Origin: a virus
Reading direction: 5' to 3' (one strand)
Length of the DNA: 31,256 nucleotides
IMG/VR virus record: IMGVR_UViG_3300030329_000957
Coordinates: 1 to 31,256 of that record
Position numbers and translations under genes: made by a program. Positions 12,592-24,829 of the stretch are shown piece after piece (positions within the stretch are counted from its first letter, which is position 1; the number at the start of each line of letters is the position of its first letter). The notes beneath the pieces were generated by a model. The model was given only the letters and a program-made list of their open reading frames with translations. It searched no databases and was not told the DNA's origin.

Positions 12592-12846
12592 ATGCTCCTA
12601 TACCTTGAAACAGATCTTGACAACGCTTACAAAATAGATTGTAAAGAGCGTACAAAGAAAGACAAGCCTTGGATACAAAGGGAAGAGTTTCGAGGGCTTT
12701 ATGAAGAACTTATAGAGTTATATATGGAAAAGGCTCAAGACCACATCTTTGTAGATATTGATTTAGAAGAGCTACCAGGATGGGTACTAGGAGAAGTTGA
12801 AAGGACGTTACAGCATGAAGTTGTATTCACTGAAGAGGAAGAATGA
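12592..12846 (+). CDS. Small acidic hypothetical protein (84 aa)
   Basis: This protein of 84 residues is rich in Glu and Asp, with no signal peptide or membrane helix. It has a helical centre (REEFRGLYEELIELYMEKAQ) and a C-terminal run of four Glu. It starts two bases after the preceding stop and ends in an ATGA overlap (12843-12846) with the exported Asn-Thr-repeat gene, so it belongs to the same transcription unit. I do not recognise the family. The tight packing and continuous late-strand arrangement make it a real gene, but its role is unknown. Confidence 0.6.
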   Translation: MLLYLETDLDNAYKIDCKERTKKDKPWIQREEFRGLYEELIELYMEKAQDHIFVDIDLEELPGWVLGEVERTLQHEVVFTEEEE

Positions 12847-13931
12847 ACCATATGGCAAACTTTGTTTTCGACAAACATTTTACAATAATTTTTATCTTGC
12901 TTATGCTTGGATTGCTTCCAGATGAAGTATTCTCTCAGCAGACAGGGACATGTACAGCAGGATCACAATACTGTGAAGCAAATTCGCTTGTGACAACCAC
13001 AACGGGTACGAATACTAATACTAATACAAACACCAATACTAATACTAATACAAACACGAACACTAATACAAATACGAATACTAATACGTCTACGGCAACC
13101 AACACAAATAATAATACTAACGTAAATACAACTTCGTATTCAGGCTCGTCTACCAATACTAATGTTAATACAAATACATCAACAAACACTAACAGTAATA
13201 CAAACGTAAACACGAACACTAATAACAACAACTCGACAGTTAGTTCGTCTTCTACAGCAACCAATACCAATGTTAATACGTCTACTGTTAATCAATCAGT
13301 AAGTAGCAGCAATGTAAATACATCAACCAGTACAAGCAATGCTACGGCTACTAATACGAATAATAACAATTCGGTATCTGAAAGTACTTCATCTTCGGAA
13401 GTCACGACAAATAATACAAATGTCAATACCAACGAAAACATCAACCGTAATGAAACGGTACAACGCATTGAACAGGACATTAATAGTCCTCCTCCAAGCG
13501 CAATCGCTCCGAGCATAGGAAGCTCTTATTCACAAGACCTATGTACGACAGGAGTGAGTGGTGCTTTACAGACTCAAATCTTTGGGTTCTCTGGAGGCAG
13601 AAGCGTAACTGATACAAACTGTGAGCGTATCAAGCTTTCAAAGACCTTATACGATATGGGCATGAAGGTAGCAGCAGTTAGTCTAATGTGTCAGGATGAA
13701 AGAGTATTTTCAGCTATGGAAATGGCAGGAACGCCTTGTCCTTATATGGGCAGTATAGGCGAAGAAGCCCAAGAGAATTGGGACAGGAATCCACAGGATC
13801 AACCAGACGGGATGGTTAGTGTTTCTCATAATTTTAAAGAGGCCGATAGCGATTCTGAATATGAATATCGTGTTTGGACAAAGGAAGAGTTTTGTAATGA
13901 AATGCCTGACGAAGCTGTGTGCCAGTCTTAG
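12843..13931 (+). CDS. Exported Asn-Thr-repeat protein with Cys-containing C-terminal domain (362 aa)
   Basis: The N-terminus is basic then hydrophobic (HFTIIFILLMLGLLPDEVFS, about 12-31), a convincing signal peptide or anchor. From about 50 to 210 the chain is almost only Asn, Thr, Ser and Val, starting with about 13 uninterrupted Thr-Asn pairs. The C-terminal ~140 residues are a conserved-looking domain with four or more Cys (CTTGVSG, TNCERIKLSKTLYDMGMK, SLMCQDERVF, GTPCP). I recall related C-terminal domains in marine phage genomes without a known function. The repeat composition resembles surface-exposed or amyloid-like stalks. The ATG overlaps the upstream stop (ATGA); a second in-frame ATG lies at 12852. 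A host-surface or virion-fibre role is possible; phage proteins rarely carry a secretion signal, so an envelope function is my preferred inference. Confidence 0.68.
   Translation: MNHMANFVFDKHFTIIFILLMLGLLPDEVFSQQTGTCTAGSQYCEANSLVTTTTGTNTNTNTNTNTNTNTNTNTNTNTNTNTSTATNTNNNTNVNTTSYSGSSTNTNVNTNTSTNTNSNTNVNTNTNNNNSTVSSSSTATNTNVNTSTVNQSVSSSNVNTSTSTSNATATNTNNNNSVSESTSSSEVTTNNTNVNTNENINRNETVQRIEQDINSPPPSAIAPSIGSSYSQDLCTTGVSGALQTQIFGFSGGRSVTDTNCERIKLSKTLYDMGMKVAAVSLMCQDERVFSAMEMAGTPCPYMGSIGEEAQENWDRNPQDQPDGMVSVSHNFKEADSDSEYEYRVWTKEEFCNEMPDEAVCQS
12998..13460 (+). repeat. Low-complexity Asn/Thr-coding repeat tract
   Basis: The sequence is dominated by imperfect hexamers of the form AAY-ACN (Asn-Thr). 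It is uninterrupted from about 13008 to 13089 and more degenerate up to about 13460. Third-position variety (act, aca, acg, acc) shows the repeat is old or selected at protein level rather than a very recent microsatellite expansion. Both strands show spurious open frames here because of the composition. Confidence 0.88.
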
Positions 13932-16242
13932 CCTTCTTCTAGGAGGACTTGCAAGCGCAACCGACTTCACTATAGGGTCAGCGTCTATTCTCGATCTGAG
14001 GAATCAGTCAGGCACGTCACAATGGAACATATCAGACGATGGTAGATCAGGAGCAATTAATTTAGGTTTTACATTTGGATTTTATGGAAATGAATACACT
14101 CAAGGATACATGTCTACGAATGGTTGTTGGTCGTTTACGACAGTCTATTGCAATGATTATACACCAGATCCGCTACCGGATACAGTTTATACTATCTACC
14201 CGTTTTGGACAGATCTTATCAGGGATAGCGGCTCTCGAATGCTTACCAAGTATTTTGATAATCCTAATGGCGATGACTATTTTATAGCGGGTTGGTATGA
14301 TTTAAGAGAATACCATAGAGCCTCTGATAACACGTTTGAAATGTGGTTATATGAGAACTCTAATAACATCGAGTTCAGATACGAAGATCTAGACATTATC
14401 CGACATGATGTTCTGATTGGTACTCAAGGAAGTTCTACAGAATATGAGCAGTACCTGTTTCACGATGAATGCTCTACAGGATCTACAAATGTTTCTGAAT
14501 CTTGTGTAACTAGTGATTGGAATAATACAGCCCATAATACAGCTTTAGAGAATAAGTCTCTAATGGTAGAGGTAGATATAACAGCGCAATGTACCGCTGA
14601 TCCTTTATATTCTGTGAACTGTAATGGTTACGCACTGGCTTATTTTAATCAGCAATGCGGTATAGATGCTTTATATGATACAGACTGTACCGGATATGAA
14701 CAGGCATACATAGATCAGCAATGTACTTTTGATCCATTGTATCACACTTCTTGTCAAGGATATGAGTCAGCAATGGCTCAACAACAGGCGATAGAAGATT
14801 CGTATACAATGGATGAGGAGTATGAAGACGGAAGTTACAGTCAGGAAGAGTATGATATGTACGGCTTTTCTCCTGACGAAATGTATATGAGTGAAGGTTA
14901 TGAATCAGAAGAGGAGTTTTACGGATATGAGACAGACACTTGGGAAGATCCTTACTATGATCAGTACTACTATGAAGAAGATTTGGAATCGTTTGAAGAG
15001 CCTTATGAAGAGGAAACGCTAGCATTAGAACCAGAATATCTATATGATCCTGTCTGGTTTGATATGGAGTTCGATCCTACTGCTGATGAGTTTGTTATTT
15101 ATGATGTAGATACAGAATATGGAGATTCTTATATTGCACAGTTAGATGAAGAGTATATCTTTGAAGACTTGGCAATCACTGAAAACTGGTTAGCTGTTGA
15201 AGATGATTGGCTAGAGGACGAAGCTTTAGAAGAATTAGAGCCTACACTTTTAGAGGAACAGGCCGAAGAAGTACTTGAAGAACTAGCAGAGATAGTAGAA
15301 GAGACTGAACTGCTTTTTATTGAAGACGAAGCTTTAGAAGATTTGATAGATGAGGAAGAACTAGAACTTCTCACAAATGAAGAAGCTTACGAAGAGCTAG
15401 TAGAAGAGGACAACATAGAGGCGATTGAAGAGCAAGAAGAAGCTTTGATTGGTGAGGAAGAGCCTGGAGAGGTTCTTGCAGAGTCTGGAGGGTCTAGTTC
15501 TTCTAGGGTTAGCTTTAACCAGGCTGTCTCTGTGGCCTTAAACTCTGTAAGAGATACAGGGACACAGGCTATGGGGTCTTCGGGGTCTGGAGAGGCTCTC
15601 AGTGCGTCTGAGGACGATGGTAGCGGAAGCTTCCTAAGAGATCAGGAAGAGCAATCATCAGGTCTTCAAGCGTTCCAGGCAGTAGAGATAGGCCCTGAAA
15701 TAGCTGCTTCACCTTTTGAAATAGCGGAACAGCAGCAAGAACAACAGGCTCAAGATGAGTTGGTATTTGAAGACGGGGAAACCTTTTCACAAGCTGACAT
15801 GCAGTTTGAAGATAATTTTAATGTGGCGATAGCTGTAGGAGGAGACATAGGAACATTCCTTAGTCAGCAAGATCCAGACTTCGGAAGGTTTGATATAGCT
15901 CCACCAACAGTCAGTGAACAGAGGATTGCACAAGCCGTAGAATCTTTAGCAGATCAGATAGGGGCAGAGGCTGCTCAAGAGAACTTACAAGAACAGCTAG
16001 ATTCTATGATGCAGGATGGTGGATTTGATACTGATCAGACGGCAGCAGTAGCTTTCATGGGCTATAGAGAAGGCTTCTCACAGTACACAGGAATGATTCA
16101 AGTTCCTGATGGATCTAGCTGGTATCTTAGTACGACTATGTACGCTGAAGAAGATGTACAAGACAACAACTTTAGCTTTTATATGATGGCTGGAAAGTCT
16201 CAGAAGAAGTTGAATGATATGGTAAATGTTGAATATAATTAA
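13897..16242 (+). CDS. Exported nidogen-like protein with Cys repeats and a long acidic region (781 aa)
   Basis: I place the start at 13897, inside the end of the previous gene (35-bp overlap), because AAGGAAGAG at 13881-13889 is well spaced and the product begins with a textbook signal peptide (MKCLTKLCASLSLLLGGLAS, cleavage likely after ASA). Residues about 24-225 resemble a nidogen-like beta fold: LGFTFGFYGNEYTQGYMSTN, YPFWTDL, FEMWLYENSNNIEFRYEDL, then VLIGTQGSS. Residues 232-297 carry three 22-residue units with Cys at the first position of each (C232, C254, C276) and the pattern C..DPLY...C.GY. Residues about 300-560 are extremely acidic and Tyr-rich, then Glu/Leu-rich. The C-terminus is Gln-rich with a final compact segment. 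It is probably secreted or surface-displayed; function unknown. Nidogen-like folds usually mediate extracellular binding. Confidence 0.7.
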   Translation: MKCLTKLCASLSLLLGGLASATDFTIGSASILDLRNQSGTSQWNISDDGRSGAINLGFTFGFYGNEYTQGYMSTNGCWSFTTVYCNDYTPDPLPDTVYTIYPFWTDLIRDSGSRMLTKYFDNPNGDDYFIAGWYDLREYHRASDNTFEMWLYENSNNIEFRYEDLDIIRHDVLIGTQGSSTEYEQYLFHDECSTGSTNVSESCVTSDWNNTAHNTALENKSLMVEVDITAQCTADPLYSVNCNGYALAYFNQQCGIDALYDTDCTGYEQAYIDQQCTFDPLYHTSCQGYESAMAQQQAIEDSYTMDEEYEDGSYSQEEYDMYGFSPDEMYMSEGYESEEEFYGYETDTWEDPYYDQYYYEEDLESFEEPYEEETLALEPEYLYDPVWFDMEFDPTADEFVIYDVDTEYGDSYIAQLDEEYIFEDLAITENWLAVEDDWLEDEALEELEPTLLEEQAEEVLEELAEIVEETELLFIEDEALEDLIDEEELELLTNEEAYEELVEEDNIEAIEEQEEALIGEEEPGEVLAESGGSSSSRVSFNQAVSVALNSVRDTGTQAMGSSGSGEALSASEDDGSGSFLRDQEEQSSGLQAFQAVEIGPEIAASPFEIAEQQQEQQAQDELVFEDGETFSQADMQFEDNFNVAIAVGGDIGTFLSQQDPDFGRFDIAPPTVSEQRIAQAVESLADQIGAEAAQENLQEQLDSMMQDGGFDTDQTAAVAFMGYREGFSQYTGMIQVPDGSSWYLSTTMYAEEDVQDNNFSFYMMAGKSQKKLNDMVNVEYN
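14590..14787 (+). repeat. Three in-frame 66-bp units encoding Cys repeats
   Basis: Units starting at 14590, 14656 and 14722 each encode about 22 residues with the pattern C-x2-D-x-LY-x3-C-x-GY, followed by AY or SAM and a QQ. The DNA has diverged more than the protein, which suggests the protein pattern is under selection. The paired Cys could form disulfides after export. Confidence 0.78.
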
Positions 16243-22336: not shown

Positions 22337-22509
22337 TATTCGTCTTCTTCATACATTTCCGATAACTTATCAAGAACTTCTTCAGCGTGTTCCTCTTTAA
22401 AATCTTCTCTCTTTATCTTTTTTATTTTCTTTTCTCTTGCGTTCCTTCTAGCTTTCTTTCGTTTTAAGAATCCTTTTCTTCGTTCTGCTTTTCGATCCCA
22501 ATCAGTCAC
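22336..22509 (-). CDS. Small charged protein (57 aa, GTG start)
   Basis: I read this gene directly on the - strand from GTG at 22509 to TAA at 22336. The product has a basic first half (TDWDRKAERRKGFLKRKKAR) and an acidic second half (HAEEVLDKLSEMYEEDE). Its start overlaps the end of the DUF3310-like gene and its stop shares a base with the reductase ATG. The position and phase are consistent with a real gene in the packed array. It has no recognised family. The basic region might bind nucleic acid. Confidence 0.62.
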   Translation of the reverse strand: MTDWDRKAERRKGFLKRKKARRNAREKKIKKIKREDFKEEHAEEVLDKLSEMYEEDE

Positions 22510-22801
22510 TGTCTTTGCTCTTTTTTACGAGGTAAAGAGCTATGATTGCATAGTGAATTATTTTAGCAAGTTCTAACCTCTTGCTAGACTTCTTTCCAAA
22601 GCGCATTGCATACTTCATTATGTTACCAATACAAAACCCTTCTCCATGTCCTGCATCTATAATCATATCAGTTGCTTGATACTTTCCAGAGCTATAATGT
22701 TTATGATAAGTAGAATCAATATAGTTCAGCATCTCTCTTAACATCTCATCTTCTTGAAACTTATATTCTTTCTTGCGAACAATCAAATCACTGTCCAACA
22801 T
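22502..22801 (-). CDS. DUF3310-like phage protein (99 aa)
   Basis: I take the ATG at 22801 (MLDSDLIVRKKEYKF) as the start because it overlaps the endonuclease I stop; the longer in-frame reading to 22984 only shadows the endonuclease I gene. The product contains HYSSGKYQATDMIIDAGHGE, then FCIGNIMKYAMRFGKK and KRLELAKIIHYAIIALY. This is the pattern of DUF3310: HY...eaiDvi, then fc.GNi.KYi.R.gkK, then el.Ka..Y. The family is common in phages and has been called nucleotide kinase-like, but its function is not firmly known. It sits between DNA-processing and dNTP-making genes, which fits nucleotide metabolism or replication. Confidence 0.75.
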   Translation of the reverse strand: MLDSDLIVRKKEYKFQEDEMLREMLNYIDSTYHKHYSSGKYQATDMIIDAGHGEGFCIGNIMKYAMRFGKKSSKRLELAKIIHYAIIALYLVKKSKDSD

Positions 22802-23201
22802 CTGTCCACTCCTCCGGTAAGGTGTCTTCAGTAAACCATCTGAAATCATTAGTCTCTGCCCATTCAGCATGAGTCCTTTTTGTTCCGTCCTTTCTCTTTT
22901 TAGCTTGAGGCATAGGCGAGTAAGGGCTTGAGAACAAAAAGACAAGCTCCGTATTTTCTGGTAAAGCTTTCTTAATCCAAACATATTTCCTGTATTCTGC
23001 GAAATCCCAAAACCTTCCCTTTGCTTCTAGTAATATTGTTAAACCATTGAAAGACTTAACAAAATCTGGTTCGTAGTGGTGCTCTATAATGTAATGGATC
23101 TTGTCCTGGTGGTGTTGCCAAGATTTCAAAATACCATCATGTAAACTTTCTTCCCATCTGGAATCGTACTTAGGTCTAGCTTTTCTAGGCTTTCTTCTAA
23201 T
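22788..23201 (-). CDS. Endonuclease I (T7 gp3-like Holliday junction resolvase), apparent ATT start
   Basis: Read from an ATT at 23201 this gives 137 residues, against 149 in T7 gp3. It resembles T7 endonuclease I: PDF with D46, EAKG with E59 and K61, VFLFSS, and the ending RWFTEDTLPEEW, parallel to T7's FADKLIPAEW. T7's catalytic E20 corresponds to E17/E18 in RWEESLHDG. No ATG, GTG, TTG or CTG exists in frame upstream of that glutamate; the first conventional start, TTG at 23129, would remove it. The ATT has a good SD (GGAAAGGAA, 23216-23208) and overlaps the upstream stop as ATTAG. The enzyme resolves four-way junctions and branched DNA before packaging and helps degrade host DNA. Confidence 0.85.
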   Translation of the reverse strand: MRRKPRKARPKYDSRWEESLHDGILKSWQHHQDKIHYIIEHHYEPDFVKSFNGLTILLEAKGRFWDFAEYRKYVWIKKALPENTELVFLFSSPYSPMPQAKKRKDGTKRTHAEWAETNDFRWFTEDTLPEEWTDVGQ

Positions 23202-23373
23202 GGAATGTTCCTTTCCTGGCTTCTAATTCCAAGTCAATGGCTTTACTTAAAAGAACTAAAACTTCTTCATCTACATAATCTACAGAGTTTCCCGACATAA
23301 TAAAACCTGCTAAAGCTATTACAATATCTGGTAACGTGTGCTCTGTTTCATTGGGGTCGAGTTTAAGCTGCAT
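23197..23373 (-). CDS. Small hypothetical protein (58 aa)
   Basis: I read this from ATG at 23373 to TAG at 23197. The product starts MQLKLDPNETEHTLPDIVIA and ends with a Leu/Glu-rich helix (VLLSKAIDLELEARKG). It overlaps the end of the preceding 106-aa gene by 55 bp and its stop overlaps the endonuclease I start. A shorter start at the internal ATG (MSGNSVDY) is possible. It fills a stretch that would otherwise be a gap in a packed operon. I recall short phage proteins ending in a similar AL-LELE helix with no known function. Confidence 0.55.
   Translation of the reverse strand: MQLKLDPNETEHTLPDIVIALAGFIMSGNSVDYVDEEVLVLLSKAIDLELEARKGTFH
23208..23216 (-). promoter_or_regulatory. Shine-Dalgarno that selects a near-cognate ATT start
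   Basis: GGAAAGGAA (on the - strand, 23216-23208) lies 6 bases before the ATT at 23201. The same bases lie inside the coding end of the 58-aa gene. The spacing and the stop-start overlap ATTAG make reinitiation at ATT plausible, as known for infC in bacteria. Confidence 0.6.
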
Positions 23374-23639
23374 TGAATCTGTTCCATTGTAACATTCTCA
23401 ATTTCTAATTCTGGTCTTTGTTTTATTACTCTCTTGATTCCGTTTTTTACCCACTTAAAAGAGTAAGCGTTTAAGTGAATACGATTGTTTGCAAAGAAGT
23501 GTGTCTCGTCTGGTAACAAGTTTTCAATGTTTTCCTTCGTTACCTGTTCAGCTTCTTCATCTGGCAATAAAGATTGAACCCATTCTATAAGAAGCTGTCT
23601 GGTTCTTCGATTTATTCTCCTTGCTTTTCTAGCGTTCAC
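23319..23639 (-). CDS. Hypothetical phage protein (106 aa, GTG start)
   Basis: The protein begins with a basic stretch (NARKARRINRRTRQLLIEWV), then has LLPDEEAEQVTKENIENLLP, ANNRIHLNAYSFKWVKNGIK and a C-terminal MEQIQ. The start is GTG at 23639, overlapping the exonuclease stop by 11 bp, with GGAG upstream. I recall close relatives in marine phages, all unannotated. It is soluble, mostly helical and basic at the N-terminus. Neighbouring nucleases suggest a DNA-linked role, but nothing in the sequence shows one. Confidence 0.62.
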   Translation of the reverse strand: MNARKARRINRRTRQLLIEWVQSLLPDEEAEQVTKENIENLLPDETHFFANNRIHLNAYSFKWVKNGIKRVIKQRPELEIENVTMEQIQCSLNSTPMKQSTRYQIL

Positions 23640-24501
23640 TAGGCGTTAGCTCCAAAACTTTAGGCGTAGATACAACCCTAGTAAAATACTTGATTCCGTT
23701 TGCATACTTGAAAAGTCTCAAACCAAAACCATTATTAGCGTCTGAATGACATTCCATTTTATAAGGACAGTATACGCATTGACGAGGAAGCCTCATGTTT
23801 CCACGTTTTCCTTCTGGTATAGGATTATAACATCTTGAAGGAGGTTTGTCAAGGTCTGCTGCGCTTCTTATGCTTTTTATCTTGTCCTTTATATTTATTT
23901 TAACTAGTGGGCCTGGTTGATAGAAGGCAAGCTCTCCACTTTCTTTATTCATTGCCAAGAAGCCACCTTCATCTGTACCTTCAGCGGTTTCATATCCTGA
24001 TAACTGTGCCATGTATCCAAAAGGATCATCATCATGTAGCGTTCCTTCAACAAACTTTTTGAAAGCAAACGAAGAGGCTGTCTTAATATCGACAACCTGC
24101 CCGTCTATCTTACAATCCATGTGTCCCTTCACACCGTCTACTTCTATTTCCTTTTGCTCGTCCTCTACCTCATGGCCTGAAAGCTTGACAAGAAGAAGGA
24201 CTAACTCTTCTAGAATATGTCCATATAAAAACTTAATAAACACTGAAGGGTGTGTACGATTATGTGCTAAGTTTCCATTCTTTAAATCATACCAAAGCCT
24301 TCGCATAGGTCTTCCTATGATAGACATTCGTAAACTGGTTCTTTCTTTACGAGGAGTAGACCAAGACTTTAAAACTGTTTTAATCCTTTCTCCAAACTCT
24401 TCTACTTGTTCATCAGATATGACTAGCTCTTCTGAATCACACAAACAAGAGAGAGTTTCATAGATGTCATCTACAACAGTATCTACTTTTTTAATCGTCA
24501 C
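23629..24501 (-). CDS. RecB/Cas4-like PD-(D/E)XK exonuclease with Cys cluster
   Basis: I place the start at GTG 24501 because AAGGAGG (24517-24511) is ideally spaced; the upstream ATG at 24561 overlaps the previous gene by 71 bp. The 290-aa product has the PD-(D/E)XK nuclease core of the RecB/Cas4 group: H95 and E98/E99 (YGHILEE), D129 (GHMDC), D138-x-K140 (VVDIKTAS), and the QxxxY motif (YMAQLSGY, Q166, Y170). Cys at 224, 242, 245 and 251 (SRCYN, QCVYCPYKMEC) could bind a 4Fe-4S cluster, as in Cas4 and AddB. In T7 the equivalent job, degrading host DNA and processing replication intermediates, is done by gp6, a different fold. Surrounding nucleases and polymerase support a recombination-repair role. 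Confidence 0.82.
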   Translation of the reverse strand: MTIKKVDTVVDDIYETLSCLCDSEELVISDEQVEEFGERIKTVLKSWSTPRKERTSLRMSIIGRPMRRLWYDLKNGNLAHNRTHPSVFIKFLYGHILEELVLLLVKLSGHEVEDEQKEIEVDGVKGHMDCKIDGQVVDIKTASSFAFKKFVEGTLHDDDPFGYMAQLSGYETAEGTDEGGFLAMNKESGELAFYQPGPLVKINIKDKIKSIRSAADLDKPPSRCYNPIPEGKRGNMRLPRQCVYCPYKMECHSDANNGFGLRLFKYANGIKYFTRVVSTPKVLELTPSER

Positions 24502-24829
24502 TATCTTGTTCCTCCTTATGCTCGATGAAACGAAGCTTTCTAGTGTTTGGATTAAACCCAAGAAGTTGAACGCCTAATTTCTTTTGTTCAGGGGAACGAT
24601 GGTTTGATTTTGAGAAAGGCCCTTTGACTCCTCCTGGTCTTTTCTGAGCCATGAAAGATTTAACGTCTATAAGTTTAATGTCTCCTTCCTTATTCATAGC
24701 AATCAAATCAACGGCCCCTGTACAGCCACAGTTTTTAAATACTTCATACCCACGATCCCATAGCCATGTTACGGCATAGAACTCCGCCAAGTCACCTTTT
24801 CTACTGTCACAATGTTCAGGCTTTTTCAT
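24491..24829 (-). CDS. Hjc-like PD-(D/E)XK nuclease (112 aa)
   Basis: This small protein has the pattern of archaeal Holliday junction resolvase-like nucleases: GDLAEFYAVTWLWDRGYEVF with E16, a beta strand with D41 (GCTGAVDLIAM), and D55-x-K57 (IKLIDVKSF). An extended basic C-terminal part follows (KRPGGVKGPFSKSNHRSPEQ). Such nucleases cleave branched DNA, and group I intron-type relatives also exist. With endonuclease I the phage would then have two junction nucleases. The ATG shares a base with the preceding HTH stop (TAATG). The motif assignment is confident; the substrate is inferred. Confidence 0.75.
   Translation of the reverse strand: MKKPEHCDSRKGDLAEFYAVTWLWDRGYEVFKNCGCTGAVDLIAMNKEGDIKLIDVKSFMAQKRPGGVKGPFSKSNHRSPEQKKLGVQLLGFNPNTRKLRFIEHKEEQDSDD
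24511..24517 (-). promoter_or_regulatory. Shine-Dalgarno deciding the exonuclease GTG start
   Basis: AAGGAGG on the - strand, nine bases from GTG at 24501. It lies within the end of the Hjc-like gene, so the two are co-translated. Confidence 0.78.

Follow-up and report, generated by a model that had tools for sequence, protein, structure and literature searches.

Where does translation begin in a phage gene whose reading frame holds no conventional start codon ahead of an essential residue? This question is raised by an endonuclease I gene in the window, i.e., the whole 31,256-base virus record analyzed here (IMG/VR IMGVR_UViG_3300030329_000957), the source of which is an uncultured, probably marine phage. 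The gene (Phage_endo_I, PF05367 match) occupies positions 22788..23201 of the minus strand and comprises 137 codons when read from an ATT (23199..23201, minus strand) to a TGA (22790-22788). Its frame is closed upstream by an in-frame TAG (23223..23225, minus strand); in minus-strand order, this TAG (23225-23223) is followed by seven codons (KPGKEHS), the ATT (23201-23199), RRKPRKARPKYDSRWEESLHDGI and the TTG at 23127..23129, the first conventional in-frame start codon. Reading the frame from the TAG onwards bears out the statement of the initial annotation that no ATG, GTG, TTG or CTG lies upstream, as none of the four occurs before TTG 23129. Among the genes of the window, an audit of 38 others showed in each an ATG, GTG or TTG close to the beginning of the frame; the endonuclease gene is the sole exception.

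The product is predicted to be a full-length T7-type endonuclease I with a Holliday-junction resolvase fold. Its Pfam PF05367 profile match (E = 3.7e-8) reaches 33.6 bits, above the curated cut-off of 29.1, and T7 endonuclease I accounts for each of the five best PDB fold matches (E = 4.5e-6 to 2.9e-5, probability 1.00, TM about 0.5) of a structure model derived from 21 sequences (mean pLDDT 89.8), although a sequence search of the PDB with the endonuclease returned nothing significant. Residues E17, D46, E59 and K61 show no variation across A2 and A3, even when the distantly related HTVC109P and CRP-804 enzymes are included in the comparison, and we take them to correspond to the T7 active-site residues E20, D55, E65 and K67. 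Profile, catalytic E/D/ExK residues and fold all place the protein in the phage endonuclease I family (PF05367, T7 gp3), and the window gene shares these features with gene 3 of T7, the start of which is conventional, unlike the ATT found here. The codon of E17 (23151..23153, minus strand), aligned with the T7-type catalytic E, lies between the ATT and TTG 23129; as had been proposed, initiation at the TTG would remove the equivalent of T7 E20.

The alignment of homologous loci that the initial annotation had suggested as a check supports an ATT start. The close relatives (L001-L005, L007-L010; 76-81% identity) all carry ATT at the window's start column, with ATG, GTG and TTG absent from the open frame before it, and the window's clade (clade A) consists of seven distinct frames, 7/7 with ATT. 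In L010 (on one contig with L081 and L470) an in-frame stop lies one codon before the ATT (TGA TCC ATT). The residues encoded ahead of the ATT vary within clade A (KPGKEHS, KKDKDIP, GKGQS, EQDKERF, S) while those behind it (RRKPRK.RP.YDS.WE) are mostly retained, i.e., conservation sets in at the ATT itself. Furthermore, the ATG start of L064 (MARKPRKPRP) aligns exactly with the ATT of IRRKPRKARP.

A Shine-Dalgarno (SD) sequence, AAAGGAA (23208..23214, minus strand), is situated 6 nt before the ATT (6–7 nt depending on the count) and forms a predicted anti-SD duplex of -5.6 kcal/mol; the strong SD noted initially is thus present, and it is conserved among the relatives as AAGGA, AAGGG or GGGG. 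Median anti-SD pairing at ATT starts amounted to -5.2 (clade A) and -6.1 kcal/mol (clade B, described below) vs. -0.9 kcal/mol for random AT[TC] triplets (p = 1.7e-4 and 3.7e-10, respectively, values that overstate independence, as the sequences are related). The gene shows two features of the class with natural AUU-type starts (infC, pcnB): the lack of a canonical start that spares its essential residues, and a conserved near-cognate codon preceded by an SD. When grouped by start codon, the medians were weakest for ATG (-2.4 and -3.8) and stronger for TTG (-5.6) and ATC (-4.5). An SD strength that rises as the start codon weakens is the order expected if the SD offsets a poor codon; compensation is no worse a reading of it than low expression, and this tempers the idea that ATT simply lowers expression. 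Weak SDs were observed at the ATC-start loci L251, L313 and L383 of clade B, where the choice of start may depend more heavily on coupling with the gene ahead.

In order to place these starts in the wider family, seven scans of viral contigs with different family queries were combined with other fetched loci, yielding 512 complete frames (201 distinct), and starts were assigned by our own motif rules derived from aligned N-termini. No ATG, GTG or TTG precedes the catalytic motif in 34 distinct frames (18 distinct N-termini), and in each of the 34 the start column of the family is occupied by ATT or ATC. A second group, clade B, comprises 88 distinct frames, which start with ATT (30), ATC (28), ATG (28) or GTG (2); some of its members have a canonical codon further upstream, and their ATT assignment is based on homology and the SD. 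The endonuclease frame is closed by a stop one codon before ATT or ATC in 12 frames (e.g., *VISTKKK, *GISTKKK, *VIKVKSG, *LIKTKSG, *LIKAKVK). Two pairs of loci, L266/L272 (ISTKKK, ATT) and L267/L268 (MSTKKK, ATG), encode identical catalytic parts of 144 aa. In the STK-type ATT genes of clade B, all pairwise nucleotide differences in codons 2-5 (267/267) fall on third positions, which is expected if ribosomes read these codons in the frame of the endonuclease immediately behind the ATT. As a control, the gene directly upstream was inspected in clade B, and for 65 of the 67 distinct cases an ATG, GTG or TTG was present among its first 20 codons (in L303, one of the two exceptions, an ATG is found at codon 21).

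A tree uniting clades A and B was disfavoured though not rejected (p-AU 0.078), and the exchange of AT[TC] with other starts required a minimum of 7 to 10 changes on poorly resolved trees, in which no direction can be assigned. An independent origin of ATT in the two clades is suggested by their different upstream genes: in clade A the endonuclease is preceded by a homologue of the window's 58-aa ORF (23197..23373, minus strand; frame +2 relative to the endonuclease; homologues in L081, L009, L082, L001, L083 and L012), in clade B by a homologue (about 26-38% identity) of the window's 106-aa ORF (23319..23639, minus strand), which in the window itself lies two genes upstream of the endonuclease. 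The same junction has therefore formed with two different upstream genes. Taken together, a conserved AUU/AUC start that recurs in two clades and is probably termination-coupled is well supported by these comparisons.

This junction consists of a stop-start overlap, ATTAG, in which the TAG of the 58-aa ORF (23197..23199, minus strand) and the ATT have one T in common. The overlap had been noted from the window alone as fitting reinitiation; it is conserved in the relatives, and a start overlapping the upstream stop is what characterizes termination-coupled pairs, so either coupling or reinitiation would be consistent with it. Each of the 37 ATT frames (37/37) is preceded by a gene whose stop (24 TAG, 13 TAA) has the last base of the ATT as its first; among the 40,520 ATT triplets of the same DNA, the background is 16.5%. 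Where the STKKK-type genes of clade B have ATG (L267, L268, L273, L285, L294) or ATC (L379, L251) instead, the upstream gene lies in the same frame and ends with TAA at +8, because no TAG can form when the start codon ends in G or C. With the upstream gene in frame +1, overlaps are often ATGA (29 frames), TTGA (17) or GTGA (4). Only ATT allows a one-base overlap with TAG or TAA, and the overlap phase can therefore explain the start codon. It leaves the 28 ATC frames unexplained, although ATC may be derived from ATT. ATTAG and ATTAA resemble the well-known ATGA and TAATG termination-reinitiation overlaps, of which the family also uses ATGA along with TTGA and GTGA, in that bases are common to the start and the upstream stop; they differ in having a single base in common and in being of another phase, possible only with ATT.

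Three other accounts of the locus were weighed against an ATT start. A programmed frameshift near the end of the upstream gene, leading into the endonuclease frame and producing a fusion protein, might be envisaged given that the genes directly overlap, that no stop interrupts the upstream frame ahead of the junction and that an SD-like site lies upstream. We consider it very improbable, since the two genes do not keep a constant frame with respect to each other (+2 in most cases, +1 in L298, L309, L300, L274, L385 and L012), the upstream gene belongs to different families in clades A and B, and in the 12 frames mentioned above a stop one codon ahead of ATT or ATC leaves no open overlap long enough for shifting. 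No obvious slippery run was found at the junction, the SD spacing suits initiation, and near-identical genes have ATG in place of ATT at the same column. The varying relative frame also speaks against a shift from the 58-aa gene, which the initial annotation had kept in view. A truncated protein starting at TTG 23129 appears marginally less probable still. No other conventional start lies in the 5' half of the frame, but this TTG is replaced by TTA in every clade A relative and hence is not a conserved start, its SD is weak (-1.2 kcal/mol), and the protein would lack the invariant E17. Moreover, the stretch between ATT and TTG 23129 is conserved as protein, with an excess of third-position changes (74/74/154). 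The least probable account, with a chance we regard as close to negligible, is a sequencing or assembly error that conceals an ATG or a missing base. More distant relatives do have ATG at the aligned column, as had been anticipated as a point against the ATT, yet the same ATT is found in independent contigs of clade A variants and again in clade B.

An explanation of a different kind, compatible with initiation at the ATT, is that this codon serves no regulatory choice and is a by-product of a compact overlap: it would follow from the phase in which the genes overlap, with a stronger SD compensating for it. To this we give even odds. It agrees with the TAG or TAA overlap of all 37 ATT starts, with the occurrence of the STKKK-type ATG and ATC of clade B where the upstream gene continues to the TAA at +8, with SDs that become stronger as codons weaken, and with the use of ATGA, TTGA or GTGA by members whose upstream gene is in frame +1. 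The 28 distinct ATC frames argue against it, as they retain a non-canonical start without the ATT-stop overlap.

Our preferred reading, to which we assign a probability of about 0.87, is that a true AUU start, an SD in the end of the upstream gene and a one-base stop overlap together define the translation start of the endonuclease. The position of this putative start, its conservation, the overlap and the SD emerge directly from the comparison of homologues. The AUU would presumably be decoded by initiator tRNA as fMet, and the SD inside the upstream gene's end, together with an AUU whose third base is the first base of UAG or UAA, would set the start. Ribosomes that terminate on the upstream gene would probably re-initiate one base away, and fresh 30S subunits may bind the SD as well. 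We infer initiator tRNA use, coupling, a reduced yield and IF3 sensitivity from this arrangement; low expression of this host-DNA-damaging nuclease, as put forward initially, or its control by IF3 could follow from it. A broader scenario is speculative and, taken as a whole, rather unlikely: AUUAG/AUUAA might be a recurrent overlap in which AUU exists for sharing its third base with the stop, weak, IF3-sensitive and termination-coupled, and AUU, together with AUC derived from it, might serve marine phages in timing or limiting a nuclease that destroys host DNA. Since gene finders do not accept AUU or AUC as starts, such cases could be common and yet go unnoticed.

Natural AUU and AUC starts are known from a handful of genes in bacteria and phages. 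Gene 26* of phage T4 also has an AUU start in a phage gene, but there the codon is internal and gives rise to a shorter product of the same gene. We know of no AUUAG/AUUAA overlap with an upstream stop in infC or pcnB of E. coli; these are cellular housekeeping genes, whereas the present case concerns a phage nuclease with a natural exchange of ATT, ATC, ATG and GTG within one family. In a passage of PMC5472188, infC is cited as having a natural, inefficient and IF3-repressed AUU start, and pcnB is cited for a natural, inefficient AUU start in a passage of PMC13009471 (Binns and Masters 2002). In S. aureus, cvfC1 (AUU) as well as ccpN and citZ (AUA) have non-canonical starts with strong SDs that are reported to be conserved, with AUU and AUA reporters yielding about 10% of AUG in poor medium (PMC13009471); those starts are chromosomal and experimentally mapped, whereas the phage endonuclease starts come from comparison. 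The GTC start of Streptomyces sigR was overlooked by annotation and such a start can limit the product via IF3 (PMC5472188), a case that differs in its codon and in concerning the stoichiometry with an anti-sigma factor. Overproduction of IF3 reduces re-initiation in E. coli, an effect that is smaller in the presence of an SD (PMC2268962). Our literature search, which covered papers available without subscription, found no report of an AUU start of a phage endonuclease.

A putative AUU/AUC start that has comparative support in a phage gene family and is tied to an AUUAG/AUUAA overlap is larger than a single-gene observation. The family contains natural ATT, ATC, ATG, GTG and TTG variants, including pairs with identical catalytic domains, and these provide matched sequences for testing what the start codon and the stop overlap each contribute. 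A simple rule, ATT starts in direct overlap with a TAG or TAA stop, can also be tried elsewhere, and gene callers limited to ATG, GTG and TTG would truncate or miss such genes.

All ATT- and ATC-start relatives are uncultured contigs. A near DNA search of phage records gave no match, and the 193 cultured-phage records with an endonuclease (tblastn) were all below 60% identity, so no isolate of clade A or B was found. The endonucleases of HTVC115P, HTVC109P and CRP-804 were rejected as clade members, being distant and having annotated ATG starts. The nearest polymerase relatives of the window are the Pelagibacter phages HTVC103P, HTVC104P and HTVC115P (about 50% identity), a kinship that might be a weak hint at the host. 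Pseudomonas phage LUZ24 (NC_010325) was considered as a further missing-start case and rejected: in the stretch L461:1381-1896, its annotated endonuclease gp43 is a 60-aa fragment, and the full frame has a TTG start (L461:1453) behind a strong SD, AAGGAGGG, overlapping gp42 by about 200 nt.

For the DUF3310 gene of the window (22502-22801, minus strand), the probable start is not ATG 22984 but ATG 22801, which has an SD of -9.5 kcal/mol and lies within the final part of the endonuclease gene. For the gene at 23629-24561 (minus strand), the SD of the listed TTG 24561 is weak (-2.4) and that of the in-frame GTG 24501 is very strong (-11.3 kcal/mol), and the gene therefore probably starts at 24501. 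Elsewhere, the predicted product of 12843-13931 (plus strand) contains a long low-complexity tract of NTNT and is followed by a large acidic protein (13819-16242), the two genes overlapping.
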